IMG/VR virus record: IMGVR_UViG_3300025828_003292
Span: 1-36,838 of that record
DNA length: 36,838 bases
Strand: one strand, 5' to 3'
Source: a virus
Positions within the stretch are counted from its first letter, which is position 1. Each line of letters opens with the position of its first letter. The position numbers were made by a program, and so were the translations under genes. Below are positions 2,695 through 32,373 of this stretch, in pieces. A model generated the notes under the pieces. The model saw only the letters and a list, made by a program, of their open reading frames with translations, did not search any database and had not been told where the DNA came from.

Positions 2695-2702
2695 TATTTA
2701 GT
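2695..2702 (-). promoter_or_regulatory. T4-type late promoter octamer (ACTAAATA)
   Basis: On the minus strand this reads ACTAAATA, two mismatches from the T4 late consensus TATAAATA. It ends 19 bases before the ATG of the cupredoxin-domain fibre gene at 2675. It overlaps the 3' end of the upstream protease gene, so the fibre gene may have its own late transcript. Position and sequence resemble the GATAAATA sites elsewhere in the window. Confidence 0.5.
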
Positions 2703-5661: not shown

Positions 5662-5669
5662 GTGTCACC

Positions 5670-7272: not shown

Positions 7273-7641
7273 ATGACAAGATTAGACGGTAAAGTTAATA
7301 AGGGATGGGGATACGAACTGATCTGGGCAACCAACGACAAATACTGTGGCAAAATTATGGTTTTTGAAAAAGCAGGTGCTAAATTTAGCATGCATTTTCA
7401 CAGAGAAAAAGACGAGACTTGGTATGTAAATTCAGGACAGTTTCTTCTGCGTTGGATAGATACTAAAACTGCAACAGTGCATGAACAAATCTTAAACAAA
7501 GGTGATTCGTGGCACAATCCTCCCCTACAACCTCACCAATTAGAAGCTCTAGAATCAATGAGTGAAATATTTGAAGTAAGTACAGCTGATAGTGTCGAAG
7601 ACAATTATAGAATACTTCCTGGAAACAGTCAGGAAAAATAA
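7273..7641 (+). CDS. cupin-domain protein of a heptose/nucleotide-sugar operon
   Basis: A single-domain cupin of 122 residues. The first cupin motif is visible as His41-x-His43 followed by Glu48 and Gly55 (MHFHREKDETWYVNSG). The second motif has GDSWHNPP at 77-84 and a further His88, giving a probable His-His-Glu-His metal site. The opening KGWGYELIWA and the closing VEDNYRI are typical of small sugar-phosphate-type cupins related to the mannose-6-phosphate isomerase C-terminal domain. I infer a role in sugar-phosphate isomerisation or binding, because it heads an operon of heptose genes and its stop overlaps the start of the nucleotidyltransferase gene by one base. The reaction itself cannot be read from the sequence. 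It starts with ATG 31 bases after a promoter. Confidence 0.75.
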   Translation: MTRLDGKVNKGWGYELIWATNDKYCGKIMVFEKAGAKFSMHFHREKDETWYVNSGQFLLRWIDTKTATVHEQILNKGDSWHNPPLQPHQLEALESMSEIFEVSTADSVEDNYRILPGNSQEK

Positions 7642-8042
7642 TGAAAAAAATTGTAGTAAACGGTGCTTTTGATATCCTACATAGAGGTCATTTAGAACTT
7701 TTAAATTATGCAAAAAGTTTAGGTGATTATTTGCTGGTTTGTACCGATACCGACTCTAGAATTTCTCAACTTAAAGGTCCAACTCGACCTATTAATTCTC
7801 AAAACGATAGAAAATTTTTACTTGAAAGCCTCAAATCAGTAGACGAAGTTGTACTTTTTGATTCAGCAGATGAATTAGAAAATATATTAATTAAATATCA
7901 ACCAGATGTAATGGTAAAAGGCAGCGAGTACAAAGACAAAAGTATAGTAGGAAGTCAATTTTGCAAACTAATAAAGTTTTATGAGACAGTAAATGGATAT
8001 TCAACAACACAAAAAATACAAGATATTATTAATAGGAGATAG
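7641..8042 (+). CDS. hldC: D-glycero-D-manno-heptose 1-phosphate nucleotidyltransferase-like (HldE C-terminal domain as a separate protein)
   Basis: A 133-residue cytidylyltransferase-fold enzyme matching the C-terminal half of HldE/RfaE. That domain transfers AMP from ATP to heptose 1-phosphate. The nucleotide-binding motif is present (NGAFDILHRGHLELL, with His14 and His17), as are KGPTRPIN (45-52), the RKFLLESL helix and VKGSEY (92-97). It ends in YSTTQKIQDII, like the usual C-terminus of the domain. In Escherichia coli this domain is fused behind the kinase; here it is a separate gene in front of the kinase, and the two overlap by 50 bases in different frames. Adenylyl and cytidylyl donors cannot be told apart by eye, but the neighbours (HldA-like, HldD, GmhB-like) favour ADP-heptose. 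Cytoplasmic. Confidence 0.85.
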   Translation: MKKIVVNGAFDILHRGHLELLNYAKSLGDYLLVCTDTDSRISQLKGPTRPINSQNDRKFLLESLKSVDEVVLFDSADELENILIKYQPDVMVKGSEYKDKSIVGSQFCKLIKFYETVNGYSTTQKIQDIINRR

Positions 8043-8748
8043 TTGTATAGATGAATACCATTATGGTAGTTCTGATAGACTAAGTCCTGAAGCACCTGTG
8101 CCGGTTTTAAATTATAAACACACAGTTACTAAACCAGGCATGGCGGCTAATGTCAAAGAAAATCTTCTAGCATTCAACTGTGATATAAATTTTATTACTA
8201 ATCAAGAGAAGATTGTTAAATCTAGATATATTGATTATAGATCTGGTCAACACCTATTACGAGTAGACAAGGAAGATAAAGTTAATCCTTTTGATGTTGC
8301 AAGTTTACATAATTTAGATTATGATGCTGTAGTTATAAGTGATTATGACAAGGGATTTGTTACTGAAGAGTTAATTGTAGAAATTAGGAAAAAATATATT
8401 GGTCCTATTTTTGTTGATACAAAAAAAATATACCTTGATAAATTTGAAGGATGTTTTGTTAAAATCAATACTTTAGAGTTTAATAGAGCAAAAACATACT
8501 GTAATGATTTGATAGTTACTAGAGGAAAAAATGGAGCTGTGTATAAGCAAAAAGAATTTCCTGCACCAATAGTAGAAGTACATGACGTATGTGGTGCCGG
8601 CGATACATTTTTATCTGTTTTAGCTTATGCTTATCTACACTATAATGATATAGAACAAGCAATTTATACAGCCAATAATGCTGCTGCGATATCTGTTCAA
8701 CATAGTGGAGTTTATGTTCTTGATAAAAAGGATATAGATCAAATATGA
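7993..8748 (+). CDS. hldA: PfkB-family heptose 7-phosphate kinase-like (HldE N-terminal domain as a separate protein)
   Basis: A 251-residue ribokinase-family protein. The start (LLIGDSCIDEYHYGSSDRLSPEAPVPVL) matches the HldE kinase domain, and the anion-hole motif with the catalytic Asp is present (CGAGDTF, Asp204), so phosphorylation of D,D-heptose 7-phosphate at C1 is likely. It is shorter than the usual ~310-330 residues. The loss is mainly between AANVKENLLAFNCDINFI and SRYIDYRSGQHLLRVD, where the family normally has the GDD/lid stretch. The first Gly of the usual GGAANV is replaced (PGMAANV). The ATG at 7993 lies 50 bases inside the nucleotidyltransferase gene; no better start exists downstream because the kinase motif begins at codon 15. 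The stop overlaps the hldD start by 4 bases. Confidence 0.8.
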   Translation: MDIQQHKKYKILLIGDSCIDEYHYGSSDRLSPEAPVPVLNYKHTVTKPGMAANVKENLLAFNCDINFITNQEKIVKSRYIDYRSGQHLLRVDKEDKVNPFDVASLHNLDYDAVVISDYDKGFVTEELIVEIRKKYIGPIFVDTKKIYLDKFEGCFVKINTLEFNRAKTYCNDLIVTRGKNGAVYKQKEFPAPIVEVHDVCGAGDTFLSVLAYAYLHYNDIEQAIYTANNAAAISVQHSGVYVLDKKDIDQI

Positions 8749-9560
8749 AAATTTTAATTACAGGTTTTAAAGGATTTATAGGACAAAATTTAGCGTTTTA
8801 TCTACAAAAAGATCATGAAGTATTAGGTTATGAATGGGATGAAGAAAATTTACCAAATGTAGAAGGTTTTGATTGGGTTATTCATCTCGGTGCTATTTCT
8901 AGTACCACTGAAAATGATGTGGATAAAATTATTTTACAGAACTATGAGTTCTCAAAATGGCTTTTTAATCAATGTAATGCTAAAAATGTTAATTTTCAGT
9001 ATGCATCAAGTGCAAGTGTGTATGGTCCTTATGAAAATTTTAAAGAAGATGATCCCAAACAGCCACAGAGTCCGTATGCGTGGAGCAAATATCTCTTTGA
9101 TAGATGGATTTGGCGGTTACCTAATCGCAACATAACGGTGCAAGGTTTAAGATATTTTAATGTATATGGTCCTTTAGAAGATCACAAAGGCGACCAAGCA
9201 AGTCCTATAACAAAATTTACTAAACAGGCCAGAGAAAGTGGAAAAATTTCCATATTTGATGGTAGTGATCAGTATCTTAGAGATTTTGTCTATGTAGGTG
9301 ATGTTTGTGAAGTACACAAGCAGTTGTTGTCCAGTGACATTTCAAACTTATACAATGTTGGTACAGGCACAGCTATAAGTTTTCAAGAAGTAGCTGAAAT
9401 TATTGCAGAAAAAGAAAACGCATCTATTGAATATATAAAAATGCCCGAAAATTTGCAAAACCAATACCAAGAATACACTTGTGCAAATATTGATAGATTA
9501 AATTCAGTTGTTAAGGTTAAATTTCATACAGTGTCGGACTATGTAAATGGAAAAATTTAA
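8745..9560 (+). CDS. hldD: ADP-L-glycero-D-manno-heptose 6-epimerase
   Basis: A 271-residue short-chain dehydrogenase-type epimerase that follows Escherichia coli HldD closely: nucleotide-binding Gly7-x-x-Gly10-x-x-Gly13, the substrate segment GAISSTTE (E. coli GACSSTTE), ASSASVYG, the catalytic Tyr111-x-x-x-Lys115 (YAWSK), and the HldD-specific block YFNVYGPLEDHKGDQAS. Later landmarks are LRDFVYVGDV, YNVGTG and ENLQNQYQEYT. HldD converts ADP-D-glycero- to ADP-L-glycero-D-manno-heptose using bound NADP, producing the donor for LPS core heptose. At 271 residues it is somewhat shorter than the ~310 of E. coli, with the difference mostly in loops. It overlaps the kinase by 4 bases and the next gene by 14 bases. 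This is the most confident assignment in the operon. Confidence 0.9.
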   Translation: MKILITGFKGFIGQNLAFYLQKDHEVLGYEWDEENLPNVEGFDWVIHLGAISSTTENDVDKIILQNYEFSKWLFNQCNAKNVNFQYASSASVYGPYENFKEDDPKQPQSPYAWSKYLFDRWIWRLPNRNITVQGLRYFNVYGPLEDHKGDQASPITKFTKQARESGKISIFDGSDQYLRDFVYVGDVCEVHKQLLSSDISNLYNVGTGTAISFQEVAEIIAEKENASIEYIKMPENLQNQYQEYTCANIDRLNSVVKVKFHTVSDYVNGKI

Positions 9561-10224
9561 AAAATTACAATTTGATCCACATTACATATGGCGTGTAAAT
9601 GATTTAGATGTTTATTACACCAACGAAACCAACGGTGGTGGTGATTTCTTTGCCAAAGAGTATGTTGACATTGTAAATGACTGGTATGGACCAGTAGAAA
9701 ATGCTTTAGAATGGTGTAGTGGACCGGGATTCATTGGGTTTGCGTTGCTGGCTAGTAAATTATGTTCTAATATATCATTCAATGACATGTACCAACCTGC
9801 AATAGATATGTTAGAAACAACCAAAGTAAATAGTGTGTATAAAAAACACATAAACATATTCCATGGTAATACACTAAACAGTTTATCGTCAGACAATTTA
9901 TTTGATTTAGTGGTTGGAAATCCGCCACACTGGTGTGACAATGAAAGCGCAAGCAAAAGTTTAGGATTTAATGTTACACAATTTCCTCATGTAATGGATA
10001 TTCTTGTAGACAACGATTGGAACGCTCATAATAATTTTTTTAGATGCATAAAAAAACATCTTACTACTAATGGTAAAATTTTATTGCAAGAAAATCTTAA
10101 TGGTTCTACTGCTAAAACATTCGAACCTATGGTGGTTGAAGCTGGATTATGCATAAATTCTTATGCACATTCGGAATTGTACAAAGACAAAGGCATATAT
10201 TATATTGAAATAGGACATCAGTAA
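9547..10224 (+). CDS. class I SAM-dependent methyltransferase with an NPPHW motif
   Basis: A 225-residue Rossmann-fold methyltransferase. Motif I appears as ALEWCSGPGFIGFALLA (53-69, with the Gly-rich loop at 59-64). The acidic end of the next strand is NDMYQ (79-83). The catalytic motif is NPPHW (125-129), preceded by LVVG. The Asn-Pro-Pro-aromatic motif is typical of enzymes that methylate an amide or an exocyclic amine (HemK/PrmC, RsmC and N6-adenine types); here the position after Pro is His followed by Trp. The substrate is not evident. Lying between hldD and two oxygenase-like genes, it may act on a sugar or on a modified protein side chain, which is an inference. It starts 14 bases inside hldD and ends with a one-base overlap with the next start. 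Confidence 0.75.
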   Translation: MEKFKKLQFDPHYIWRVNDLDVYYTNETNGGGDFFAKEYVDIVNDWYGPVENALEWCSGPGFIGFALLASKLCSNISFNDMYQPAIDMLETTKVNSVYKKHINIFHGNTLNSLSSDNLFDLVVGNPPHWCDNESASKSLGFNVTQFPHVMDILVDNDWNAHNNFFRCIKKHLTTNGKILLQENLNGSTAKTFEPMVVEAGLCINSYAHSELYKDKGIYYIEIGHQ

Positions 10225-10778
10225 TGAATATAGAAATAATAGATAATTGTATTCCTGAATTTTACCAAGATTTATTTGAAGGATTATGTTTAGGTAAAAC
10301 TAAAGGTTGCGAAGTTGAAAATGGATTACCTTGGACCGCAAAATACGAAAGTACAGCGCGGCGAGATGGCATAAGTCCGTTAAGTTTTAAACATGTTTTA
10401 AAAAGCAGTGCAGAATTGTCACCGCATTTTGTAAATTTTAGCACAATTCCTGTAAATGTAATTAATCGATTAGGCATGGCATTGCAAGATATTATTTTTG
10501 CTAGATTATTTTTAACTATGCCTTATAAAACAGACTTAAAGCATCATGATCCTCACACTGATTTAAATTTTCCGCACCTTAGTTTAATATATTATGTTAA
10601 CGACGCTGATGGTGACACAGTTTTTTTCCAAGAAGATTACAAAACAGTTTTTGAAAGTGTAACGCCAAAAAAAGGAAGATGCGTAGTATTTGATGGATTA
10701 ATTCCTCACGGTGCTGGAATACCTGAATCAGGTCCTAGGTGTATAGTAAATTATAATTTACAGGTGGCTAACAGATGA
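10224..10778 (+). CDS. 2OG-Fe(II) dioxygenase-like protein (HxD type)
   Basis: A 184-residue jelly-roll oxygenase candidate. The facial triad is visible as His111-Thr-Asp113 (DPHTDLNFPHLSLIYYVN) and His162 (GLIPHGAG), with Arg172 (GPRCIVNY) placed to bind 2-oxoglutarate. The core strands LIYYVN and CVVFDG are typical. Such enzymes use Fe(II), O2 and 2-oxoglutarate to hydroxylate proteins or small molecules. The substrate cannot be named. The ATG overlaps the stop of the methyltransferase by one base, and its own stop overlaps the next ATG by 4 bases, so the three are translationally coupled. It is one of eight oxygenase-like proteins within 6.6 kb. Confidence 0.75.
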   Translation: MNIEIIDNCIPEFYQDLFEGLCLGKTKGCEVENGLPWTAKYESTARRDGISPLSFKHVLKSSAELSPHFVNFSTIPVNVINRLGMALQDIIFARLFLTMPYKTDLKHHDPHTDLNFPHLSLIYYVNDADGDTVFFQEDYKTVFESVTPKKGRCVVFDGLIPHGAGIPESGPRCIVNYNLQVANR

Positions 10779-11416
10779 GTTTTGAAGATAATGTTATGGA
10801 AGTTCAGTTCTTTAATGAACAAGAATGTGAAGAAATTAAAAATTGGGCATTTGAATTTGAACAAAAACTAATTGAGTCTGGATTTGGAGACTATAAACCT
10901 TCACCGGATCATTTTGATAATGTTACAACTTCTAATTATCACCATTATAATTTCTTTCATTATTTTCCACAACACGCAGATAGACTTGGAAACTGTCTCT
11001 ATCATATAAACAAAGATTTAGAATGGCCCATTATTTGTCAAGCATGGGTCAACATTTATAGAAAAGGCCAAGGCATTAATTGGCATAATCATATGGGACG
11101 AATGGGGAAAAGTTTTAGTTGCAATGTGTTTATTTCAGGAGAGGCAAGTCCTGGTATAATGTATAAACCTTTTAATGAAAAAACCATTGTGCGTGAAAAT
11201 AAAATAGGCTACATGCATGTTTTTCCGTGTGAATTATTTCATTCAGTATCTCCTATCGATACTGACGTTCCCAGAGTCTCTTTAGGAATGACAGTGCATA
11301 GTAATTCTGATATAAATATTAATCTAATAAACCAACTGGCATTTAATAGTAGAATGTATCAAGACTCTATTATATTATCAAAGGAACATTATGAGCAACC
11401 GCAACCTACTACCTAA
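10775..11416 (+). CDS. 2OG-Fe(II) oxygenase-like protein (HxH variant)
   Basis: A 213-residue protein with the strand order of the double-stranded beta-helix oxygenases. After WVNIYRKGQGINW come His104-Asn-His106, then the distal His156 (CELFHSVSP) and Arg167 (VPRVSLGM) at the 2-oxoglutarate position. The usual acidic ligand of the HxD pair is His here, as seen in the putative 2OG-FeII_Oxy_5 group of marine bacteria and phages, so iron chemistry is plausible but unproven. It overlaps its upstream neighbour by 4 bases and the parvulin gene by 26 bases. It is clearly not a close paralogue of the preceding oxygenase, since the two share only the fold landmarks. Confidence 0.6.
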   Translation: MSFEDNVMEVQFFNEQECEEIKNWAFEFEQKLIESGFGDYKPSPDHFDNVTTSNYHHYNFFHYFPQHADRLGNCLYHINKDLEWPIICQAWVNIYRKGQGINWHNHMGRMGKSFSCNVFISGEASPGIMYKPFNEKTIVRENKIGYMHVFPCELFHSVSPIDTDVPRVSLGMTVHSNSDININLINQLAFNSRMYQDSIILSKEHYEQPQPTT

Positions 11417-11738
11417 AGTAAGGTGTAGTCATATATTATTAAGTTATGATGACGCAATAGAATCTTCACACTCTCGTGAGATTTATTTTGCAGTATTTGA
11501 CGCAAAACAGATTATTGCAGAACTCAAAAGAGGTGGACTAACATGGGCTACTGCTGTAAAAGAACACAGTGCATGTCCACATAGTTGGTATAGAGATGGA
11601 GACTTAGGCTGGTTTGACATCAATGATGGTGTTTGTCCAGAACTTTATTATTCTACTTTAGCCGCACCAAAAGACGAGTTGCTAGAAGAACCCGTACAAA
11701 CTCCTTACGGAATTCATATTATTACTAGAACAGGTTAA
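11391..11738 (+). CDS. parvulin-type peptidyl-prolyl cis-trans isomerase
   Basis: A 115-residue single-domain parvulin (PpiC-like rotamase), which catalyses cis-trans isomerisation of Xaa-Pro bonds to speed folding. Family landmarks occur in order: VRCSHILLSYDDA (His early in the first strand), LKRGGLTWATAVKEHSACP, the GDLGWFD loop, and PVQTPYGIHIITRTG at the C-terminus. There is no signal peptide or membrane anchor, so it acts in the cytoplasm. It is the last gene of the plus-strand operon and its stop overlaps the convergent gene by 4 bases. In this setting it may assist folding of fibre proteins or act on proteins that the neighbouring hydroxylases modify; this is inferred. The ATG at 11391 lies 26 bases inside the preceding gene and follows AAAGGAA. 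Confidence 0.85.
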   Translation: MSNRNLLPKVRCSHILLSYDDAIESSHSREIYFAVFDAKQIIAELKRGGLTWATAVKEHSACPHSWYRDGDLGWFDINDGVCPELYYSTLAAPKDELLEEPVQTPYGIHIITRTG

Positions 11739-12067
11739 TCAAGTTCGCCGTTTATTGTAAAACTAGTTAGTGGCCCTGCAATAGATTCATCATCTCTGTT
11801 TGTAAGGTTACGCATTCCATCCGGTGTTTCAGGATTCATAGATAAGTTATACTTGTTTTGAATTATTTCATCGTCTTGACCGATTTCATAACCTATTTCT
11901 ACAACTTCACAACCTTTATCGGGATGGTAGTTTGATACCCACTGTTCTGCTAGGGCAGATGTAGGGAACTTTCTTACTTCTTCATATCCGTCACCGTCGG
12001 GGTCCCATGTGTGCCAGACTTTTACATTAGCATGTGTCGGATGTGGTTTTTTAATTGCGTATGGCAT
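11735..12067 (-). CDS. small protein of unknown function
   Basis: I do not recognise this 110-residue acidic protein. It contains an Asp-rich loop (WDPDGDGYEEV, residues 21-31) whose D-x-D-x-D spacing resembles a calcium-binding loop, but there is no second copy and no EF-hand helix pattern. A middle segment (FPTSALAEQWVSNYHPDKG) looks like a helix with a following turn. It is the last gene of the minus-strand oxygenase operon, 8 bases after the GmhB-like gene, with a ribosome binding site (AGGAGATA). Its 3' end overlaps the parvulin gene's 3' end by 4 bases, where the two operons converge. Confidence 0.6.
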   Translation of the reverse strand: MPYAIKKPHPTHANVKVWHTWDPDGDGYEEVRKFPTSALAEQWVSNYHPDKGCEVVEIGYEIGQDDEIIQNKYNLSMNPETPDGMRNLTNRDDESIAGPLTSFTINGELD

Positions 12068-12075
12068 ATTATCTC

Positions 12076-12636
12076 CTATAATTCTTCTGCAAAATCTTGC
12101 AACGAGTTAAAAACATAAGTTGCTTTTTTTATGTTTTTATAACTGTATTTATTCAATTCATGTTCTGTTTCGGCCCCGTATCCTGTCCTAACAAGCACAG
12201 GCCTAGCACCAATTTTCATGGCTGCTTTAAGATCAGCTAGTTTATCGCCTACATAAAAGCCATTTTTCCAATTTAAATCAGGTATTTCTTTTTGACTTAA
12301 TTTAAACATTCCTGTGTTAGGTTTGGCATATAGGTCTTTTTTACTACTTGTTTCACTATAATATATACCATCTATATCTGTGCAACCCGCTTGTCCTAGC
12401 AACCATAACATATGTTCGTGTACAGCATTGACATCTTCAACTGTCATTAGTCCTTTTTGTATGCCGCCTTGATTGGTTATAATAACAATACCATACCCTT
12501 TGCTTTTTAAATTAGCAATAGATTCTAAACTACCAGGAATTGGTTCAAAATCTTGGGGTTTTGTACAATAGGTTCCAAGATCTGTGTTAATTACACCATC
12601 ACGGTCTAGTCCAACAAAAATTCTTTTATTCGTCAT
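12076..12636 (-). CDS. gmhB: HAD-family phosphatase, GmhB-like (heptose 1,7-bisphosphate 7-phosphatase)
   Basis: A 186-residue HAD phosphatase of the HisB-N/GmhB type. Motif I is LDRDGVIN with Asp11 (nucleophile) and Asp13 (acid/base). Motif II is IITNQGG (52-58), a Lys occurs in AKPNTGM (104-110), and motif III is YVGDKLADLKAA (Asp131 and Asp135). GmhB removes the 7-phosphate of heptose 1,7-bisphosphate before nucleotide transfer, which complements the HldA, HldC and HldD genes in the facing operon. Escherichia coli GmhB has a zinc loop with three Cys and one His before the CRKP segment. Here that stretch reads YYSETSSKKDLYAKPNTGM, so the zinc ligands are absent, as in some relatives. HisB-type activity is possible but the context argues against it. 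It overlaps the upstream gene by 11 bases. Confidence 0.75.
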   Translation of the reverse strand: MTNKRIFVGLDRDGVINTDLGTYCTKPQDFEPIPGSLESIANLKSKGYGIVIITNQGGIQKGLMTVEDVNAVHEHMLWLLGQAGCTDIDGIYYSETSSKKDLYAKPNTGMFKLSQKEIPDLNWKNGFYVGDKLADLKAAMKIGARPVLVRTGYGAETEHELNKYSYKNIKKATYVFNSLQDFAEEL

Positions 12637-13207
12637 AGGTATACCAACCAGTAATGATATACTTTACACCCTTATAAATTGGATTTCCTCTATGGGGATG
12701 AGTAAATGCTGTAGGAAAAATAACAAGTTTGCCTTCTTCTGGTGCTAGTTTTTTTCCTTGATATAAGAATTCTGTTTCTCCACCTTCTTCTACATCGTTT
12801 AAATAAACCATATAATTTACAACTCTAGATGCACTACTTTTACAAGCCGCTTCAGCATGCCAAGCATGGTATCCTTGATGAGGTCCTGTGCGTTGGACAT
12901 TCATACCTTTTGCACTGTGTTGTTTACTGTGTTGCAAGATACTATACTTTTGCATATATTCGCCTGTATAAATTTCTTTTAAACGCTCATAAAAATAATT
13001 ACAAAGTTTAAAATCATAATGATAAACACCCTGAGTGTGTGCCCAATCAAAAACAATTCTATCATCTGTAACAAATCCATGACCTTGTCTATTTGGATTG
13101 ATAATTCTATTATCATCCATTGTTTCAAAATGTCTAATTACTTCTTGACAAAATTCTGAATCAAAGGCTTTTGGATATTCTTCTATACCCGAGTATTCTT
13201 CAGTCAT
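12626..13207 (-). CDS. prolyl-4-hydroxylase-like 2OG-Fe(II) oxygenase (HxE variant)
   Basis: A 193-residue protein with the C-terminal pattern of prolyl 4-hydroxylases: WHAEAACKSSASRVVNYMVYL, EGGETEF, GKLVIFPTAFTH and GVKYIITGWY. The first iron pair is His117-Ala-Glu119, where the family usually has HxD. The distal ligand is His170, and Lys182 takes the place of the residue that holds the 2-oxoglutarate C5 carboxylate. The Asp-to-Glu change keeps an acidic ligand. This is the one oxygenase in the window whose family points to protein proline hydroxylation, although marine phage members have no known substrate. The ATG overlaps the stop of the SGNH-like gene by 4 bases. Confidence 0.75.
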   Translation of the reverse strand: MTEEYSGIEEYPKAFDSEFCQEVIRHFETMDDNRIINPNRQGHGFVTDDRIVFDWAHTQGVYHYDFKLCNYFYERLKEIYTGEYMQKYSILQHSKQHSAKGMNVQRTGPHQGYHAWHAEAACKSSASRVVNYMVYLNDVEEGGETEFLYQGKKLAPEEGKLVIFPTAFTHPHRGNPIYKGVKYIITGWYTYDE

Positions 13208-14007
13208 TGTTGCTCCTTTATATATGGTATATATCTTTCTGCTATAGCCCTATGAACATTAGTTGAATAGTGTTCGCCATCTACAGTATCTATACTATAA
13301 TTTTTTTTAAGATAATCAATTGCATTTATATTAGCAATTTTGGTTGACTTTAGTTTTGTGTAATAAGAAAGCGTTTCTTTTGGCAGGTAACACCTATCAT
13401 TTATATTCCAAACATATAAAGGAATATTATTATATGTACAAAGCATATCACACATTGCAATGCTTGTAAAGTAATCTTCCTGTTCTAAATGTGTATTGCT
13501 ATGATGCCACATTCGCATGTACATATGACTAACTCTACGAACATCTGGTTCTGCTTTCCAAACCTCTGTATCAGGATGATAAGGAAATATGTCATAATCA
13601 CTAGGTTCAGGTTTTAAAAAAGTTTCTAAATATTTGTTTTCTACACTTAGACTTATGCTATATCGGTGTATTTTTTCTGATTTAAAATTTTCGTCTAAAA
13701 AGAAATCTTTAGGAAATATATTTTTGTCATCTAGATAAGGATTTATAGCAACAGGAAATCTGCCCCAGTATGTTGATTGTATAAAAACTGAATCAATATC
13801 ATTATATAGCTCTAGCGCATTTGCTAGAAATCTGGGATAGGTCCTGTTACCTGCTCCTGCACTTGCCATTATTACAACTTCTTTGTCGTAAATTTGACTG
13901 TAAATTTCTGCATAGTTATTTTCTTGCCACACATTAGGACCTTCTAGTTTTATATTTCCATCATAGCCCATACTATGACTACAACCGATAAAAAGAGTCT
14001 TACTCAT
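13204..14007 (-). CDS. SGNH/GDSL-hydrolase-like protein
   Basis: A 267-residue protein with the ordered blocks of SGNH hydrolases. Block I is FIGCSHSMGYD (Ser10 at the nucleophile position). An Asn block is ASAGAGNRTYPR (Asn54). Near the C-terminus Asp243-x-x-His246 (VDGEHY) fits the Asp-x-x-His pair of block V. Members remove or transfer acyl groups, often acetyl, on sugars and lipids. The usual second residue of GDS is Cys here and a Gly residue around the oxyanion hole is uncertain, so activity is likely but not proved. There is no signal peptide. It sits among oxygenases and the carbamoyltransferase, with 4-base and 8-base overlaps on its two sides, which suggests a role in tailoring the same glycan or protein. 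Confidence 0.6.
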   Translation of the reverse strand: MSKTLFIGCSHSMGYDGNIKLEGPNVWQENNYAEIYSQIYDKEVVIMASAGAGNRTYPRFLANALELYNDIDSVFIQSTYWGRFPVAINPYLDDKNIFPKDFFLDENFKSEKIHRYSISLSVENKYLETFLKPEPSDYDIFPYHPDTEVWKAEPDVRRVSHMYMRMWHHSNTHLEQEDYFTSIAMCDMLCTYNNIPLYVWNINDRCYLPKETLSYYTKLKSTKIANINAIDYLKKNYSIDTVDGEHYSTNVHRAIAERYIPYIKEQQ

Positions 14008-14548
14008 GCCATGTTACCTCAAAATCAAACACCATAACTCTGCGTTCATCTAATGTAGGATATGCACCATGCCATATTCTTGCATCCATTATAAGTAGTT
14101 TTCCTGGTTGCGGCTGCCACCAATTAACATAAGTTTCACCTTGTGCATCCTGTAATACAGCATAAAATGCTCCTTCGTCATTGGGTTGATCTTTAATATC
14201 ATCGAAATATAAAACAGCAGTGCATCCTGTTTTACCTTTACTGTGATTATGCATTCCTTTCCACCCACCAGGATAATATTTAATACTCCACGATTGTATA
14301 TGGGTGTGTATATTGCAAGGCACATTACCATCTTGTAAAACTTTATTTGTTTTTTCAACTATAAAATCTGCTATGGGTTTTGTTTCTTCAAGTGTTTGAG
14401 GAATTTGATATCCGTTTACTGTGGTACTTTTTCCGGGTTCAACTAAGTTAGGATGGTCTTTATCAAAAAGTTTTTCATAATCCTGCCACATAGGAGCATG
14501 TGTTTCCACTATCCATCTGTTATTGGCTATATAGAGTATATCATCCAT
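14000..14548 (-). CDS. 2OG-Fe(II) oxygenase-like protein (HxH variant)
   Basis: A 182-residue jelly-roll oxygenase candidate. SWSIKYYPGGWKGMHNHSKG gives His100-Asn-His102. A strand AVLYFDD follows, then PGKLLIMDARIWHGAYP supplies His160, and Arg169 or Arg170 (DERRVMVFDF) sits at the 2-oxoglutarate position. The arrangement resembles the putative 2OG-FeII_Oxy_5 group in which the second ligand is His. It overlaps the upstream oxygenase gene by 8 bases and the SGNH-like gene by 8 bases. No substrate can be named. Divergence from its neighbours outside the ligand motifs argues against recent tandem duplication. Confidence 0.65.
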   Translation of the reverse strand: MDDILYIANNRWIVETHAPMWQDYEKLFDKDHPNLVEPGKSTTVNGYQIPQTLEETKPIADFIVEKTNKVLQDGNVPCNIHTHIQSWSIKYYPGGWKGMHNHSKGKTGCTAVLYFDDIKDQPNDEGAFYAVLQDAQGETYVNWWQPQPGKLLIMDARIWHGAYPTLDERRVMVFDFEVTWHE

Positions 14549-15158
14549 TTTTTTCTGCGTCTGCTCTTACTACAAAATTTGCTGCTATAGATGCCCTAAC
14601 ACTGTCTGTTTTACTAGGTAGTACATAATGAGATATCCAACTTGGGAACAATATAAGTGTGCCTTTTTGTAATTCTGGACACACATGCTGATAATTATAG
14701 GCATTGAAAATTCTATCCATACCAGAACTTCGTATTGTCTGAAAATTAGGACATTCAAAAATCAAATTGCCGCCTGGATCTTTTTCATCTGGATATTCTA
14801 GCAAATAGATAGCACTTATACATCGTCCGGGGAAAGCATGATCGTGTGGTTCTTGATAATGACCTTTACTATAAACATTTAACCAGTGCTCGTCGCAAAA
14901 AATACCATAAGAAACTTGCGGATCTAAATTTTCTAAAAAATTATTTAAATGAGGTTCTACAGATTTAAAAAATATCTCCCAAGGTAGCTCTTTATTTTTT
15001 TCACTTCTAATTGTACTTTTTGTTTCAGCTAGTGTCCAATCACTGTCTGTAAAAAATGTTTTGTCTTGCAAATAAGGTGACCATGTTTTACTAATTTCAT
15101 CTTTATTTTTTAGAACAGCAGAATAAAAGTATGTTCCCCATAAATTTAAAAAACTCAT
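14541..15158 (-). CDS. 2OG-Fe(II) oxygenase-like protein (HxH variant)
   Basis: An oxygenase-like protein of about 205 residues from the ATG at 15158. The longer frame starts with TTG at 15173, but the ATG makes the stop/start overlap of 4 bases used repeatedly in this operon, so I prefer it. Numbered from the TTG, the iron-site candidates are His110-Asp-His112 (HYQEPHDHAFPGR), His182 (PSWISHYVLPS) and Arg193 (DSVRASIAANF). The context HWLNVYSKG before the first pair and GTLILFPSWISH before the distal His are typical of the TIGR02466/2OG-FeII_Oxy_5 family. Substrate unknown. It lies between the DUF6445-like gene and another HxH oxygenase. Confidence 0.7.
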   Translation of the reverse strand: MSFLNLWGTYFYSAVLKNKDEISKTWSPYLQDKTFFTDSDWTLAETKSTIRSEKNKELPWEIFFKSVEPHLNNFLENLDPQVSYGIFCDEHWLNVYSKGHYQEPHDHAFPGRCISAIYLLEYPDEKDPGGNLIFECPNFQTIRSSGMDRIFNAYNYQHVCPELQKGTLILFPSWISHYVLPSKTDSVRASIAANFVVRADAEKNG

Positions 15159-15661
15159 TTCATATCGTCCCAACCTAATTTAGATTTTGCATTAAAGAAG
15201 AATACTTGTGTTAATCTTCCTGTCTCTGGTGAATTGCCAAATCCGGCTATCATGCTGCTATGATTTAAATTTCCTTTGTATAGTATTAGTCTATTATACA
15301 CATTTCCTAATGCAGTTACAAGTTCATCTTTGTCGTTATATAGTGCAGTTCCGGACTCAAGAGGAGCGTCGGGTGAAAGGTATAATACACCTGCCCAATC
15401 ACATCCATCTTTATGTATCCAAGTTTTTGCGTCAGCATAGCACAATTGAAAGCAAAAACTATCCATAACAAATTCATCAATTGTTACATTTAAAATTTCT
15501 GATATTCTCATTTGAAAATATTGTTGATAGTCATCATCGGCGGCGTTACTTCTCACTCCAGGAAATTGTCCTGTGTAAGGGTATTCAAGATTGATAGCTT
15601 GTTCACGCACTAGGTCTGGTTTAGGTAAAAAGTTATCAATTACTAAACTTGTTATTTCCAT
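15155..15661 (-). CDS. DUF6445-like 2OG-Fe(II) oxygenase-fold protein (HxD type)
   Basis: A 168-residue protein whose beginning (VIDNFLPKPDLVREQAIN, then TGQFPGVRS) and end (NRLILYKGNLNHSS, GRLTQVFFFNA) match the pattern I associate with DUF6445, a family related to the 2OG-Fe(II) oxygenases. The metal-site candidates are His138-region distal (LNHSS), the pair His-Lys-Asp in TWIHKDGCDWAGVLYL near residue 102, and Arg in GRLTQVFFF near residue 150. These are in the canonical HxD...H...R order. Function is not established for the family; hydroxylation is inferred. The ATG overlaps the stop of its upstream neighbour by one base and its stop overlaps the next ATG by 4 bases. Confidence 0.65.
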   Translation of the reverse strand: MEITSLVIDNFLPKPDLVREQAINLEYPYTGQFPGVRSNAADDDYQQYFQMRISEILNVTIDEFVMDSFCFQLCYADAKTWIHKDGCDWAGVLYLSPDAPLESGTALYNDKDELVTALGNVYNRLILYKGNLNHSSMIAGFGNSPETGRLTQVFFFNAKSKLGWDDMK

Positions 15662-16179
15662 TATTCAAAATCCATATAAACATTTCCACTAATTGTAGTT
15701 CCTATATTTCCTGGTCGAACAAAATGTTCAATAAAACTGGGGAATATAATAATATCACCCTTTTCACATTCTGGTCTAAAGTCTAGAGGAAATTCTTTTA
15801 CATTTGTGCCAAACTGATTTTGTATGTCTTTAAAAAGCGGATTCATAAACACAGTGTTTGATTTTTCTACAGTTTCATATATTACAAAACTCCAGCTAGA
15901 TCTAGGATGGATATGTATATCTTGCCAATCGTGTTCTTCATATTTGTTACGCCATATTTGGCCAAATCTTGGATTGTTTCCAATTAGGTCTGCGCCAAGA
16001 TTTTTTGTAAAAATTTCTATCAAATATTCAAATGTACTTTTAGGAATTTCATGATTTTTTCCTATAGTTGACGGTGTTTCACTTAACCAAACCTTTTCAT
16101 AAGGTGCATCTCCTATATCAATCTTTGAAAGATCTATTTTGTCAATAAAAAATGGAATATGAAACATGTTATATTTCAT
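15661..16179 (-). CDS. 2OG-Fe(II) oxygenase-like protein, 2OG-binding Arg not evident
   Basis: A 172-residue member of the same fold group. DIHIHPRSSWSFVIYE supplies a His-x-His pair near residues 92-94, and GDIIIFPSFIEHFVRPG supplies the distal His near residue 154. After that His the expected Arg or Lys on the final core strand is not evident (GTTISGNVYM); the only nearby Arg belongs to the HFVRPG turn. It may therefore bind the cosubstrate differently or be inactive. It overlaps the upstream oxygenase gene by 4 bases and the DUF6445-like gene by one base. Substrate unknown. Confidence 0.6.
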   Translation of the reverse strand: MKYNMFHIPFFIDKIDLSKIDIGDAPYEKVWLSETPSTIGKNHEIPKSTFEYLIEIFTKNLGADLIGNNPRFGQIWRNKYEEHDWQDIHIHPRSSWSFVIYETVEKSNTVFMNPLFKDIQNQFGTNVKEFPLDFRPECEKGDIIIFPSFIEHFVRPGNIGTTISGNVYMDFE

Positions 16180-16814
16180 TTAAATCTCCGTGCCGGTAAG
16201 GGAACTTTACGCATCATTTTATATACTAGAGTTGCTCTTAATCCTTTATATACTTCGTTTGGTGGTAGTCCGTGGTGTGGGATTTTTCCTTTAAACACTG
16301 CTACTCTACCAGGCTTAGGTATAATAGGAGTCCAATTGCCTTTTTCTAGTTCTACAACAGTTGCGCCTCCCCATTCTTCTTTCCAGTTTCTATTGACATA
16401 GTAAATAAATGTAATACCATTGTCACAAGTACAATCTTCATGAGGTATAGTGTTGTGAATATATTGCTGTCCGTTAACTAATACTTCTCCTAGTTCTAAT
16501 TCAAAAGGAACAAATTGTGCTACTGCATTATAAATCATTTGCCAACAACTATCTCCAGAATTAGGACTACTAGGAGGATTTATATGCTGTTTGAATGCTG
16601 GAACTTCAGGCCAATTGGGATCAGAACCTGCATCATGATTAGGATCTTCATGGAAGTTACTAGTATGACCGTAAAACCAACTGTATGTATTAAAAACTTG
16701 ATTGTGTACATGGTCTATTAGCCATTGCGGGAATAAATCATCAATAACTATAATCTGGTCTTCTGCTAGATCATACTTACTCAAATCTTTTTCTGGTTTA
16801 CCATTAACCAACAT
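16176..16814 (-). CDS. 2OG-Fe(II) oxygenase-like protein (HxD type)
   Basis: A 212-residue protein with a canonical-looking facial triad: His-Glu-Asp in NTIPHEDCTCDNGITFIYYVN (near 126-128), the distal His in GKIPHHGLPPNEV, and Arg in LRATLVYK at the 2-oxoglutarate position. The strand WGGATVVEL and the turn PGRVAVFKG between them are standard. The N-terminal half (IVIDDLFPQWLIDHV) resembles the first helix-strand unit of P4H-like proteins. It is the first oxygenase gene after the carbamoyltransferase, overlapping it by 11 bases. Substrate unknown. The Cys-x-Cys after the HxD pair is unusual but may be incidental. Confidence 0.75.
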   Translation of the reverse strand: MLVNGKPEKDLSKYDLAEDQIIVIDDLFPQWLIDHVHNQVFNTYSWFYGHTSNFHEDPNHDAGSDPNWPEVPAFKQHINPPSSPNSGDSCWQMIYNAVAQFVPFELELGEVLVNGQQYIHNTIPHEDCTCDNGITFIYYVNRNWKEEWGGATVVELEKGNWTPIIPKPGRVAVFKGKIPHHGLPPNEVYKGLRATLVYKMMRKVPLPARRFK

Positions 16815-18627
16815 TGTTTGCTACCTTTGCTAATACCTTATACTCTGGCAAATATAGATATTCAATTTCACTATTAGCAAGTGTGCGAAATGCATCATCT
16901 AGAGTTTCAACTAGTGGCTCTCCGCCTAGGTTAAAACTAGTATTAAAGATAATCGGAACACCTGTTTGATTATAAAATTCTTTAATATAATCATAGTATA
17001 ATGGATTCTGTTCTCGTGTAACTGTTTGAATACGACAAGAACCATCAACATGAATAATACTAGGTATTTTTTCTTCTATACCCGGTTGACAATTCATTGC
17101 ATACATCATGTGTGGTGATTCTTTTAGACCTCTCATATCAAACCATTCTTGGGCATGTTCAGCTAGTATTGTGCCAGCAAACGGACGGAAATATTCTCTA
17201 CGCTTAACTTTATTAACATGATCCTTACCATTAGGATCTGTTGGGTCGTACATTAAACTTCTATTACCAAGTGCTCTAGGTCCTGATTCAGATCTTCCTT
17301 GAAACATAGCAACGATATTTTTATTTCTCATAAGCTCTACTACAGAACTCATTTCAGTTTGTTCCAATTTTGCGTTATATTTTTCAGCAACTTCTGTTAT
17401 ATAACTATTGGTTAACTCATATTTAGGACCAAGATAAAGACTTTGTGCAAAAGGTTTTACAGTTGTATCGTTAGTTAGTTGATGGTAAGCAAACAATGCA
17501 GCACCAATTGCTGTACCTGCATCAGAACTTATTGGTTCTACATAAAGATTTATATCATGCTTGTTTAATTCTTCTAGATAAAAATAATTTGCTACACAGT
17601 TTAGTCCGTATCCGCCACTAACTACTACATTTTTATTTCCTGTTTTTAACACAGCATTTAAAATTAATTTTAATACCTGTTCCTGACTTTCTTTTTGTAC
17701 AGCATATGCTAAATCTCTGCGATTTTCTAAATCAACTAGTTCTTTCATCCGTTCTGGCCACATTCCTTGAGGTGTTTCTAAATACTCGTAGAACATTTCA
17801 TTGATTACACTACTGTTCGGATATGTAGGTATTACCAAGTGTCTATTTGCTACAGTCCAGTTACCGCTTGCACTATGATACAATGATGGAATTTTATTGT
17901 TGGGTTTACCGTATGGTGATAATCCCATAGTTTTTCCTGCTTCAATTGCTTGAAATCCGCAATAGTTTGTAACTGCTTCATAAACTTTAACTATACCAGC
18001 GCCGTCATCTATTATACATTCGTGTGTTCCTTGCTCATCGAACTTTTCACTGGGCATGTCTTTCACATAAGCAGATCTAAAAGGACCATTTCCTCCTAGA
18101 TGTTTCCAAACAGTTTTAATATTATATGGATACTCGCAACTAAAAATACTTTCAAGTTCGTACAACATTTCAGTTGGACTACCGTTTTGCATATCTGTTG
18201 GCATAAATGTTCCAGCACCATCTACTATAACTGCTGTAGCATTTTCAAATCCGCTACGATAAAATGCACATGCCGCATGTAGCTTATGATGTATATGAGA
18301 AAGATCAACAACTTGAGGATGATTCATTATGTCTATACTTGTGTTTTGATCAATTAATCCCAGCTTCCTAGCAAGTCCAGTATAAACATCATCTCCTGTA
18401 AAATCAATTCTGCCAGCTGTTTGTGCAAGAGGTTGAGTATGAGCAATTACTAAATAATCTATTTTGTCAGTATATTCTAATATTTTTACCATAGAAGCAA
18501 AAGGACCGCCATCGTATTTTTGACGACTTAGTCTTTCTTCTTCTATTGCAAACACAATTTCACCATCTTTAAGCAAACACACTCCTCCGTTATGGCCTCG
18601 TGTTATTGCAGCGATCCATTTAGACAT
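16804..18627 (-). CDS. O-carbamoyltransferase of the NodU/TobZ family
   Basis: A 607-residue full-length carbamoyltransferase. Family members transfer a carbamoyl group from carbamoyl phosphate, through a carbamoyl-adenylate, onto a sugar hydroxyl (NodU on Nod factors, TobZ on tobramycin). The N-terminal Kae1-like domain begins with TRGHNGGVCLLKDGEIVFAI and EEERLSRQKYD. The metal-binding His cluster is HIHHKLHAACAFY (111-123), followed by VIVDGAG (Asp136). The C-terminal domain has the diagnostic RSESGPRALGNRS (about 443-455) and YFRPFAGTIL. It starts 2 bases after the GT9 gene and precedes the oxygenase run, so a carbamoylated sugar is a reasonable product. Such genes are known in marine T4-like phages. 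Cytoplasmic; no signal peptide. Confidence 0.9.
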   Translation of the reverse strand: MSKWIAAITRGHNGGVCLLKDGEIVFAIEEERLSRQKYDGGPFASMVKILEYTDKIDYLVIAHTQPLAQTAGRIDFTGDDVYTGLARKLGLIDQNTSIDIMNHPQVVDLSHIHHKLHAACAFYRSGFENATAVIVDGAGTFMPTDMQNGSPTEMLYELESIFSCEYPYNIKTVWKHLGGNGPFRSAYVKDMPSEKFDEQGTHECIIDDGAGIVKVYEAVTNYCGFQAIEAGKTMGLSPYGKPNNKIPSLYHSASGNWTVANRHLVIPTYPNSSVINEMFYEYLETPQGMWPERMKELVDLENRRDLAYAVQKESQEQVLKLILNAVLKTGNKNVVVSGGYGLNCVANYFYLEELNKHDINLYVEPISSDAGTAIGAALFAYHQLTNDTTVKPFAQSLYLGPKYELTNSYITEVAEKYNAKLEQTEMSSVVELMRNKNIVAMFQGRSESGPRALGNRSLMYDPTDPNGKDHVNKVKRREYFRPFAGTILAEHAQEWFDMRGLKESPHMMYAMNCQPGIEEKIPSIIHVDGSCRIQTVTREQNPLYYDYIKEFYNQTGVPIIFNTSFNLGGEPLVETLDDAFRTLANSEIEYLYLPEYKVLAKVANNVG

Positions 18628-18629
18628 AC

Positions 18630-19679
18630 TTATTTTTCTCCAAATCTTTTAATAACTGTATTTCCAGGAATTAATTTTGGTCCTGTTGCAGGTCCTGCTG
18701 CAGGTGCTTGTTTAAATTCAGTTTGTGTTTTTTTGTTAGATGATGGACCTAATCTATCTCGTACACTTTTTAAAATTTTATCTATTTGTTTTTTATCAAG
18801 TTCCATAACTTCATCGTTGTGTCTATCTTGTTCTTCCTCCATTGTTAATCTTATAGGAGCATAAATTCTTTTACCTTCGCCTACATCTATAATATCAAAA
18901 TTCTTATCATCCGGATAAGAAATATTAATTGGATATGTTGAACCTGTAACTATAGTTGCTGTTTTACCAAGAGCTCTAACAATGTGTTGACCCAAACTGT
19001 CACAACCTAAAAAGTGATCAGCAACTTCAATTATTCCTGCCCACACACGCATGTCAGGAATTTCTGGTTGTGCTACAGGATACTTTGGATTAGGCACTGT
19101 GTCTATTGCTACAGGATGCTCACTCATAATTATTACACCATATTCTTTTCTAAGCGTATCTATTATTTCTATTATATTATTCAGTTGAAAACTTCTAGAA
19201 GTTGCGTCGACCAAAAAACTTCCTATATTTTCTACAGTCCTGCCAAAAGGTTGTACTACTAGTACCTTATCAAATCCTGTTACTTGTTTAATTTCTTCGA
19301 CAACATTTGCTGCACTTACAACTTCTGTTTTGCTTAAAACCAGTTTAGGTTTGTCTAAATCTCGGATACCTTTATTGTTAATTTCAATATCAAATGCTTG
19401 TGATAGACTGCATTTTTGATTGTAATATTCCCAAACTCTATAAGGTTCTGGACTAACACAGTTTCTATCTTTTATGTAAGTTTCAAAAAGGCCCTTATGC
19501 CAATGATCAAACACTCGCTTATGCAGTGTAGGATGACCCTTATAAAAGTCAGTGCCTCCTTCGCATACAATAATAAAATCATCTTTGGGATTTTCTTTTT
19601 CGTATAATTCAAATGCTGGAATGCTTGCTATAACACGGCCTGCGCCACCGTTAATAAAAAATGCTGTAGATCTTGTCAA
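18630..19679 (-). CDS. GT9 (heptosyltransferase-like) glycosyltransferase, TTG start
   Basis: A 349-residue GT-B-type protein. The N-terminus (FFINGGAGRVIASIPAFELYEKENP) and the C-terminal donor-domain segment (DHFLGCDSLGQHIVRALGKTATIVTG, about 225-250) correspond to the GT9 pattern of ADP-heptose:LPS heptosyltransferases (HFxGxDSGxxHxAxALGK and the following GxTxP). GT9 enzymes transfer heptose or related sugars from nucleotide donors. The start codon is TTG at 19679, chosen because AAGGAG lies 7 bases upstream and no ATG fits. The last ~40 residues are a low-complexity tail (PAAGPATGP). It is the first gene of the operon that also holds the GmhB-like phosphatase, so use of the ADP-heptose made by HldD is the simplest reading, though not proven. 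Confidence 0.75.
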   Translation of the reverse strand: MTRSTAFFINGGAGRVIASIPAFELYEKENPKDDFIIVCEGGTDFYKGHPTLHKRVFDHWHKGLFETYIKDRNCVSPEPYRVWEYYNQKCSLSQAFDIEINNKGIRDLDKPKLVLSKTEVVSAANVVEEIKQVTGFDKVLVVQPFGRTVENIGSFLVDATSRSFQLNNIIEIIDTLRKEYGVIIMSEHPVAIDTVPNPKYPVAQPEIPDMRVWAGIIEVADHFLGCDSLGQHIVRALGKTATIVTGSTYPINISYPDDKNFDIIDVGEGKRIYAPIRLTMEEEQDRHNDEVMELDKKQIDKILKSVRDRLGPSSNKKTQTEFKQAPAAGPATGPKLIPGNTVIKRFGEK

Positions 19680-19796: not shown

Positions 19797-20510
19797 TTAG
19801 AATACTATTTTATCACCAGAATCTGGTTCTACTTCGCTTGCAGGATCAATAGGCTGCATGTTATAAGCTGCCCAGGCAGGAATTCCTGCATTTTGCATAG
19901 TTGCTGGCCAATCTCTAAGAGCTTGTCTATATGCTCTCCATTTTGTTTTTAGTGCTTCTGGCATATCGTCAACTAGTTCGCTGTCACTGTTTTTAAGTAA
20001 CTGATCTCTTTTAGCTCTTACATCGTCCCAATCTGGTAGTCTATCTCCGCTTCCCATTACAGCCCACGGAATGCTTCTAGCATCTATTGAAATATTATCA
20101 TTTTCATCTACAGTAATGCTGTCGGGTTCGTACACATCTATAGGTCTTAGAGGTGTTTGGTAATAAAATCTTGTGTGACCTGGTACTTCAGTAACGCCTG
20201 TTGGATTTTGATCTCCAGTGTAATCTTCTTCCATTTCGTCTATTACAGGTGCTCTTAATTGACAAATTAAAGGATTTGTCACACAGTCAACTTCAACATA
20301 TCTGCAATTAGCTGGTACTGGACGACCGTCAGATTTTTCAAGTGCAGTGATTGGACCCATTTCTTCTTTACCAGTTTCGTTGTTTACGATAAGATAAATC
20401 TTATCAGGACCATCATAGACACAGGTTCTAGTATTACCATCAGTGAAAGTATGATCAATCATATAATCATTTGGTAAATTCATAGTCCATTCAAATTCAA
20501 TCATTGCCAT
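19797..20510 (-). CDS. tail-fibre assembly chaperone-like protein
   Basis: A 237-residue protein. Its C-terminal part resembles phage tail-assembly chaperone proteins: VRAKRDQLLKNSDSELVDDMP followed by KTKWRAYRQALRDWPA, matching the common pattern of a W/R-x-RD-LL-xxSD helix, an acidic loop and W-xx-YRQALRD. The N-terminal ~150 residues contain a segment with two close Cys (CRYVEVDCVTNPLICQLRAP) and look beta-rich. Such proteins help trimeric fibres fold and usually lie next to the fibre gene they serve; here the neighbours upstream are the three Cys-rich proteins. A late octamer stands 18 bases before the ATG, and the terminator follows the stop. ATG at 20510 is preferred over the second Met. 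Confidence 0.65.
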   Translation of the reverse strand: MAMIEFEWTMNLPNDYMIDHTFTDGNTRTCVYDGPDKIYLIVNNETGKEEMGPITALEKSDGRPVPANCRYVEVDCVTNPLICQLRAPVIDEMEEDYTGDQNPTGVTEVPGHTRFYYQTPLRPIDVYEPDSITVDENDNISIDARSIPWAVMGSGDRLPDWDDVRAKRDQLLKNSDSELVDDMPEALKTKWRAYRQALRDWPATMQNAGIPAWAAYNMQPIDPASEVEPDSGDKIVF

Positions 20511-20528
20511 TTTTATTATCTCCGTAGT

Positions 20529-20536
20529 TATTTATC
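20529..20536 (-). promoter_or_regulatory. T4-type late promoter octamer (GATAAATA)
   Basis: GATAAATA on the minus strand with exactly 18 bases before the ATG at 20510, the same octamer and spacing as at 7176 and 32366. The upstream gene stops at 20539, so the octamer fills the only gap between the two genes. Confidence 0.7.
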
Positions 20537-20538
20537 AT

Positions 20539-21348: not shown

Positions 21349-21357
21349 TTCTGCTCC

Positions 21358-22140: not shown

Positions 22141-22151
22141 TCATTTTTTCC

Positions 22152-22928: not shown

Positions 22929-22944
22929 GTAACAGTTTCCTCTA

Positions 22945-23676: not shown

Positions 23677-23687
23677 ATCATTTTCCC

Positions 23688-24008: not shown

Positions 24009-24023
24009 TTTGTTTTCTCCATC

Positions 24024-32347: not shown

Positions 32348-32365
32348 TTAATTGCTCCATATACA

Positions 32366-32373
32366 TATTTATC
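32366..32373 (-). promoter_or_regulatory. T4-type late promoter octamer (GATAAATA)
   Basis: GATAAATA on the minus strand, again with exactly 18 bases before the ATG (32347), and immediately after the stop of the giant gene at 32374. It marks the start of a late transcript covering the giant fibre genes and probably those downstream. Confidence 0.7.

Follow-up and report, generated by a model that had tools for sequence, protein, structure and literature searches.

A candidate virion glycosylation module beside cysteine-rich tail-tip genes in a marine cyanophage-like virus

The DNA analysed here (the window) is a 36,838-base fragment of a marine cyanophage-like virus from IMG/VR (record IMGVR_UViG_3300025828_003292). 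Between its tail-fibre genes, at positions 7273-19679, is a block encoding a GT9-fold glycosyltransferase, ADP-heptose synthesis enzymes, a NodU/TobZ-family carbamoyltransferase and eight oxygenases. The block is probably a virion-protein glycosylation module, with proteins of the fibre tip that are rich in cysteine (Cys) as the acceptors. In outline, the phage would make ADP-heptose from a heptose phosphate with HldA, GmhB, HldC and HldD, after a first isomerization that is perhaps carried out by a cupin. The GT9-fold enzyme would move heptose onto the Cys-rich tips before or during tail assembly, and the NodU-type enzyme would probably carbamoylate the sugar. The oxygenases, a methyltransferase, an SGNH-like protein and, in relatives, halogenases might provide variable tailoring of the tips or their sugars. 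Tips modified in this way would alter host recognition, virion stability or protection. Gene content, predicted folds, gene linkage and the co-occurrence of heptose genes are observed, whereas the acceptor, the sugar linkage, the target of carbamoylation and the benefit to the phage are inferred. The parts of this scheme are not equally secure, and the gradings used here are judgements, not computed values. If the tips are the acceptors, then heptose is very likely the sugar transferred. Placement of the carbamoyl group on that sugar is somewhat favoured, and the idea that the oxygenases act on the same proteins is put forward tentatively.

The central evidence is gene order. Relatives of the block were sought by protein searches, a nucleotide search (megablast) against phage records having given no match. 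Among 50,697 phage records these find a GT9-like gene in S-SSM7, S-SSM6a, Sf-FS3, S-CAM1, S-CAM3, P-SSM2/P-SSM5 and some single-cell marine viruses. Gene order was then compiled for 80 IMG/VR loci seeded with GT9 and 79 seeded with a Cys-rich protein, which partly share contigs, and counts were made only where a contig is long enough to tell. The order is nearly invariant: fibre, one to three Cys-rich proteins, chaperone, GT9 and carbamoyltransferase, followed by oxygenases, halogenases and heptose genes in varying combinations. A Cys-rich protein is upstream of GT9 in all of the GT9 loci (65/65). Conversely, the Cys-seeded loci have GT9 in 54 of 54 cases and the carbamoyltransferase in 50 of 50. 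Among the other annotated open reading frames (ORFs) for module and structural proteins, 1404 in all, not one is Cys-rich. In the window, too, GT9 is in the same gene run as fibres, the chaperone and the Cys-rich tip proteins. Because GT9 and Cys-rich tips are found together in every relative that is long enough, it is probable that the tips are sugar-coated, rather than that the host surface is remodelled.

The linkage extends to divergent relatives. Adding a divergent set brought the number of distinct GT9 loci to 135, and 134 of these have a Cys-rich tail protein. The remaining locus (L319) is a truncated contig. The Cys-rich gene is upstream and on the same strand in 129 loci; a script scored 131, but two of its hits (in L305 and L329) are spurious 109-residue zinc-ribbon-like ORFs. 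In L305, L329, L272 and L306, individual inspection showed a triplet of Cys-rich genes on the converging strand. Vibrio phage K479 has its Cys-rich tail protein immediately downstream of GT9. The neighbour itself can also change. In AG-345-O18 and AG-345-P14, where GT9 is about 39% identical, the Cys-rich neighbours do not detectably resemble the main family. The GT9 homologue of Aeromonas phage HJ05 comes directly after a fibre with a Cys-rich C-terminal half, and in Vibrio phages K479 and D505 GT9 directly precedes a long tail protein that contains repeats and is richer in Cys than any other protein of the region. The GT9-linked place is taken by no fewer than three Cys-rich fibre families that are unrelated to one another, so cysteine-richness, and not one protein family, tracks GT9. 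The phage records agree: even with divergent Cys-rich queries included, the Cys-rich families are found only in GT9-carrying phages, and one further contig match belongs to a single cell (AG-345-E02) whose other contig has GT9. The cases outside cyanophages come from deposited Aeromonas and Vibrio phages, since scanning IMG/VR with the GT9 homologues of HJ05 and K479 as seeds turned up no additional relatives. The K479 tail protein (L169:9747-14678) is Cys-rich in its N-terminal region and carries repeats of the AYADGIVTAEE type, and the GT9 homologue next to it stands alone.

What are the Cys-rich proteins? In relatives, the one to three proteins directly upstream of GT9 are mostly about 260-355 residues long, with approximately 8-15% Cys and 14-21% Gly, compared with about 0.5% Cys in other fibre proteins of the region. 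Pfam gave no match for the window's own three proteins and a profile search of the PDB for the Cys-rich protein gave none either, whereas the S-CAM1 homologue is recognized as Gly_rich_2 (PF21722, 4e-10, above the cut-off). A structural model of the protein at 21358-22140 (predicted local distance difference test, pLDDT, 80) matches a fibre of cyanophage Pam3, its best Foldseek match (Z 16.4, 223 residues aligned, root mean square deviation 8.0), and the Bxb1 tail tip (Z 12.2, 182 aligned, deviation 3.5). The predicted fold is thus shared with Gly_rich_2 tip domains, the Pam3 fibre and the Bxb1 tip. Unlike those proteins, the tips here are loaded with cysteines, many at variable positions: a mean of 15.6 of 29 (about half) fall at conserved columns and the remainder are spread over variable ones. 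A description of Cys-rich cyanophage tail tips was not found in the literature searched.

The proposed transferase has no Pfam match and no true match in PDB sequence searches, and its assignment to the GT9 fold is supported by its predicted structure (model pLDDT 83). Foldseek ranks TibC first, followed by the GT9 structure 3tov, WaaC and WaaF. TibC is an E. coli protein heptosyltransferase that heptosylates surface adhesins, with Asp110 as the base (PMC4358343). The phage enzyme resembles TibC and AAH, the bacterial autotransporter heptosyltransferases (BAHTs), in its GT-B heptosyltransferase fold and in having a host-recognition adhesin as its likely acceptor. Two BAHT hallmarks are missing, however. 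The N-terminal beta-barrel (residues 1-97) is not present, the phage model opening with the first lobe and aligning from TibC residue 92. Neither is the four-Cys iron finger; C39 and C90 are invariant and C226 nearly so, but none is so arranged. The likeness to WaaC and WaaF covers the fold over the whole protein and the nucleotide-site motif D-[ST]-x-x-x-H near the C-terminus, where GCDSLGQH aligns with TNDSGLMH of WaaF and D227, S228 and H232 are invariant in the phage GT9 family. It does not cover the setting, which is tail fibres and not lipopolysaccharide (LPS) genes. The GT9 proteins of L038, L044, L049 and others carry a variable low-complexity C-terminal tail, partly with Cys and His (CPTHGVVH, CCGHHGH), that the window copy lacks.

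The sugar donor would be supplied by the block itself. The HldA, GmhB, HldC and HldD steps are all represented, although every score is under the strict equivalog cut-off. The initial annotation regarded the two gene runs as one coordinated system, and they were not seen to occur independently: when whole records were searched, HldA was present in 12 of 13 cyanophage-type GT9 records and a strong HldD in 12 of 13. Phages carrying the GT9-like gene also share the same carbamoyltransferase. The converse of the co-occurrence fails, because P-TIM68, S-T4 and S-SM2 have heptose genes without GT9. Why should a phage make its own ADP-heptose? Probably because its cyanobacterial host cannot. A convincing HldA was found in only 2 of 37 small-genome cyanobacterial relatives of Synechococcus WH7803, and going by these sequences ADP-heptose genes are mostly absent from the picocyanobacteria checked. 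Hosts of the Vibrio and Aeromonas type normally make ADP-heptose themselves. None of the three GT9-bearing Vibrio/Aeromonas phages has HldA or a strong HldD, as expected if their hosts supply the donor.

A number of observations weigh against this interpretation. The first concerns the fold. The VIA Z scores are 22.1 for 3tov (281 aligned, 3.7 Å), 20.4 for WaaF (272 aligned, 3.8 Å), 18.5 for WaaC and 18.4 for TibC. In the model the fold is heptosyltransferase-like, but it does not fix the acceptor, and protein and LPS enzymes are inseparable by Z. Second, where WaaC has its catalytic Asp13 (TibC Asp110) the phage enzyme has an invariant Arg15, in an alignment that is short and weak (E 0.007). 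The homologues of P-SSM2, HJ05, K479 and O18 also have Arg at that position. Third, the pathway has a gap at its start. Family searches found no sedoheptulose-7-phosphate isomerase (GmhA) among the window proteins, in any of 14 related phage records, or in most of the host relatives searched. Fourth, the initial annotation let the oxygenases create the hydroxyls that accept the sugar, which they may do, but S-CAM1 has a core module without any oxygenase and the core reaction can therefore dispense with hydroxylation. Finally, common descent of the fibre region could account for part of the linkage to Cys-rich tips. The initial annotation, which preferred virion modification to LPS remodelling, overlooked the GmhA gap and the Arg; its preference is nevertheless the better supported, given that no true exception to the linkage was found.

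The cupin may stand in for GmhA as a sugar-phosphate isomerase. It has weak matches to MannoseP_isomer and Lyx_isomer, an intact metal site (the HxHx4Ex6G motif and a second His), and accompanies HldA, HldC and HldD both in GT9 modules and in the GT9-less heptose islands. Its nearest PDB sequences are oxalate decarboxylases. GmhA was not found in Synechococcus WH7803. Another candidate, the T4-GC 306 'phosphoheptose isomerase' of cyanophages, was rejected because its sequence reads as a small HAD protein (DIDGT start) and not as a GmhA/SIS isomerase; from that sequence it likely performs the phosphatase step. Copies are present in S-SSM7 (L002:24708-25043), P-SSM2 (L003:16021-16365) and S-CAM1 (L004:15922-16245).

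The missing Asp also permits a more radical idea. What if the GGxGR branch of GT9 links heptose to the cysteine thiols of the tail tips? In this hypothetical scenario of dedicated S-glycosylation, the acceptors would have evolved their extreme cysteine content and the enzyme would have lost an Asp base that is needed for hydroxyl acceptors. The lost base and the thiol-rich acceptors make S-linked heptose conceivable, but the idea is speculative and, at present, rather unlikely to be right.

The leading alternative to tip glycosylation is that heptose is added to the LPS or another surface polysaccharide of the host, so that superinfection is blocked. Several of these genes were described as co-occurring 'LPS genes' in P-SSM2, S-SM2 and S-SSM7, with an unclear purpose and possibly as stuffer DNA (Sullivan 2010; PMC3037559). 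The GT9 fold would suit WaaC and WaaF activity equally well, and in P-TIM68, S-T4 and S-SM2 the heptose genes are in a separate island away from the fibres, among several glycosyltransferases. For those GT9-less islands the LPS reading is plausible and may hold. The module considered here is different. It has a single glycosyltransferase and no ligase, flippase, polymerase or membrane protein, and it is linked almost without exception to the genes of the fibre tip and their chaperone. The LPS of marine Synechococcus contains no heptose, and so offers no heptose core to extend (PMC4515613). In addition, the Vibrio and Aeromonas GT9 homologues stand alone beside Cys-rich tail proteins. Remodelling of the host surface by this module is therefore unlikely.

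A pathway for a secondary metabolite or a capsule decoration, whose product would be an amino-acid or sugar compound carrying halogen and carbamoyl groups, is less likely again. In its treatment of the homologous S-SSM6a cluster, Iyer 2021 proposed either a secondary-metabolite system or a means of decorating the capsule (PMC7824862). The carbamoyltransferase does invite this comparison, because its PDB relatives are TobZ, GdmN and the novobiocin enzyme, and many relatives of the block have halogenase homologues. However, the module has no scaffold synthase or exporter. Its invariant part is the fibre tip, chaperone, GT9 and carbamoyltransferase, with halogenases being optional, and the linked Cys-rich fibres were left out of account in what that paper says of the cluster (PMC7824862). 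The phage enzyme has the N-terminal Kae1-like (PF02543) and C-terminal YrdC-like (PF16861) domains in common with NodU/TobZ enzymes, as well as the solved relatives. It would differ from them in its substrate, which is probably heptose on a protein and not a free metabolite or Nod factor.

Could the block simply have hitchhiked, as an accessory island inherited with the fibre region and functionally unconnected with the Cys-rich proteins? Accessory genes do gather in the fibre regions of cyanophages, which are hypervariable (PMC7029224). Nevertheless, the linkage outlives a move of GT9 to the opposite strand and a swap of the Cys-rich protein for unrelated families, and it is also found in unrelated phages, whereas the other genes of the module are variably present; hitchhiking is therefore improbable. 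DNA hypermodification is scarcely credible: oxygenases, a glycosyltransferase and a carbamoyltransferase could in principle hydroxylate, glycosylate and carbamoylate bases, but the oxygenases match PF13640, PF13759 and DUF6445 and gave no match to a family of DNA-base oxygenases, and the module is tied to fibre genes and not to nucleotide or replication genes.

The proposed glycosylation of the tips builds on a gene set that is already known. The core cluster of GT9, carbamoyltransferase, HldC, HldA, cupin and HldD corresponds to T4-GC 302-308 of P-SSM2, S-CAM1/3, S-SSM7, S-SSM6a and Sf-FS3, which also includes a HAD phosphatase or GmhB. That cluster is likewise beside fibre genes and mostly adjoins gp13-gp16; in annotated genomes the core has fibre genes on one side and gp13/gp14/gp15 or a further fibre gene on the other. 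In contrast to it, the window has two convergent runs, a full-length GmhB in place of the small HAD protein, and the additional eight oxygenases, SGNH-like protein and PPIC protein. Phage glycosyltransferases that modify virion proteins are known in kind. As far as the literature searched shows, what is new is the link to Cys-rich tips, its extension beyond cyanophages, the missing catalytic Asp and the missing GmhA. Cyanomyoviruses are abundant marine viruses, and their 'LPS' genes without a tested function now have a concrete candidate substrate. This suggests glycosylated receptor-binding tips as a device for host recognition or protection. A GGxGR GT9 beside a Cys-rich fibre would be its genomic signature, one that marks Vibrio and Aeromonas phages too.

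The block has 19 intact, tightly packed open genes in two convergent runs (Table 1). The plus-strand run (8 genes, 7273-11738) is ordered cupin, HldC, HldA, HldD, methyltransferase, two oxygenases and PPIC. The minus-strand run (11 genes, 19679-11735) has GT9, carbamoyltransferase, six oxygenases, the SGNH-like gene, GmhB and a gene without assigned function. The runs overlap by 4 bases (11735-11738), and no protein of the module has a hydrophobic or membrane segment. All of the genes named by the initial annotation were found where it placed them, with fibre genes on either side of the two convergent runs. Its limits for the block also stand, but they leave out the likely acceptor genes, which are just outside (20539-22928).

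Table 1. Genes of the block and of the adjoining tail-tip region, with the supporting matches.
Position	Strand	Feature	Evidence
7273..7641	+	Cupin, T4-GC 307 type ('cysteine dioxygenase' in cyanophage annotation)	Cupin_2 3.6e-8; phrog_7851 1e-38
7641..8042	+	HldC-type ADP-heptose adenylyltransferase domain	TIGR02199 1.1e-34, below its cut-off
7993..8748	+	HldA-type heptose-7-phosphate kinase (PfkB)	TIGR02198 5.6e-44, below its cut-off; phrog_8133 3e-98
8745..9560	+	HldD-type ADP-heptose 6-epimerase	TIGR02197 1.7e-73; 38% identity to E. coli RfaD
9547..10224	+	Small-domain (HemK/PrmC-like) methyltransferase	PF05175 6e-6
10224..10778	+	2-oxoglutarate (2OG)-Fe(II) oxygenase	PF13640 1.3e-6; phrog_274, same phrog as cyanophage 'DNA endonuclease V'
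10775..11416	+	2OG-Fe(II) oxygenase, PF13759 type	5.1e-6
11391..11738	+	PPIC-type peptidyl-prolyl isomerase	PF00639 5.7e-10
11735..12067	-	Conserved module protein without assigned function	
12076..12636	-	GmhB-type heptose-1,7-bisphosphate phosphatase (HAD)	NF006506 1.9e-41
12626..13207	-	2OG-Fe(II) oxygenase, PF13640	3.1e-14
13204..14007	-	SGNH-like hydrolase or acyltransferase	GCSHS start, DGEH near end (motifs read from sequence)
14000..14548	-	2OG-Fe(II) oxygenase, PF13759 type	3.8e-4, below cut-off
14541..15173	-	2OG-Fe(II) oxygenase, PF13759	4.1e-14; matches PF13640 family too
15155..15661	-	DUF6445 oxygenase-like protein	7e-13; HxD and later His
15661..16179	-	2OG-Fe(II) oxygenase, PF13759	4.7e-8
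16176..16814	-	2OG-Fe(II) oxygenase, PF13640	2.7e-8
16804..18627	-	NodU/TobZ-family O-carbamoyltransferase, both domains	PF16861 (Carbam_trans_C) 2.9e-59; PF02543 4e-28
18630..19679	-	GT9-fold glycosyltransferase, candidate protein heptosyltransferase	phrog_8954 3e-144; Foldseek top TibC 4rap 6.8e-9
19797..20510	-	Tail-fibre assembly chaperone, between Cys-rich genes and GT9	PF16778 1.5e-11; phrog_4912 (tail fiber assembly)
20539..21348	-	Cys-rich, Gly-rich tail-tip protein, candidate acceptor	11.5% Cys, 14.9% Gly; phrog_4205
21358..22140	-	Cys-rich, Gly-rich tail-tip protein, candidate acceptor	10.0% Cys, 16.2% Gly
22152..22928	-	Cys-rich, Gly-rich tail-tip protein, candidate acceptor	11.6% Cys, 16.3% Gly

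The eight oxygenases divide into three PF13640 proteins, four PF13759 proteins and one DUF6445 protein. All eight have an HxD, HxE or HxH motif and a later His, the four PF13759 members being of the HxH kind. The labels 'DNA endonuclease V' (phrog_274) and 'minor coat protein' (phrog_1644) in cyanophage annotation appear to cover 2OG-type oxygenases of this sort, as at 10224-10778 in the window and in S-SSM7 (L002:20613-21167, 15311-15970 and 26803-27501). The SGNH-like protein has no family match and no match in phage records; its gene is syntenic in IMG/VR relatives. A branch in which GT9 has moved beside gp15 has two SGNH-like genes between GT9 and the carbamoyltransferase (L305:8998-10799, L319:4385-6228 and L329:8998-10799).

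To the right of the block (19797-36837) are the chaperone, the three Cys-rich proteins and large fibres. To the left are gp15, a subtilase-like fibre and another fibre-like protein, with the subtilase and fibre genes at 2698-7157. The subtilase (S8) domain is within a 987-residue fibre-region protein (2698-5661) that is possibly a fibre-processing or virion-borne protease.

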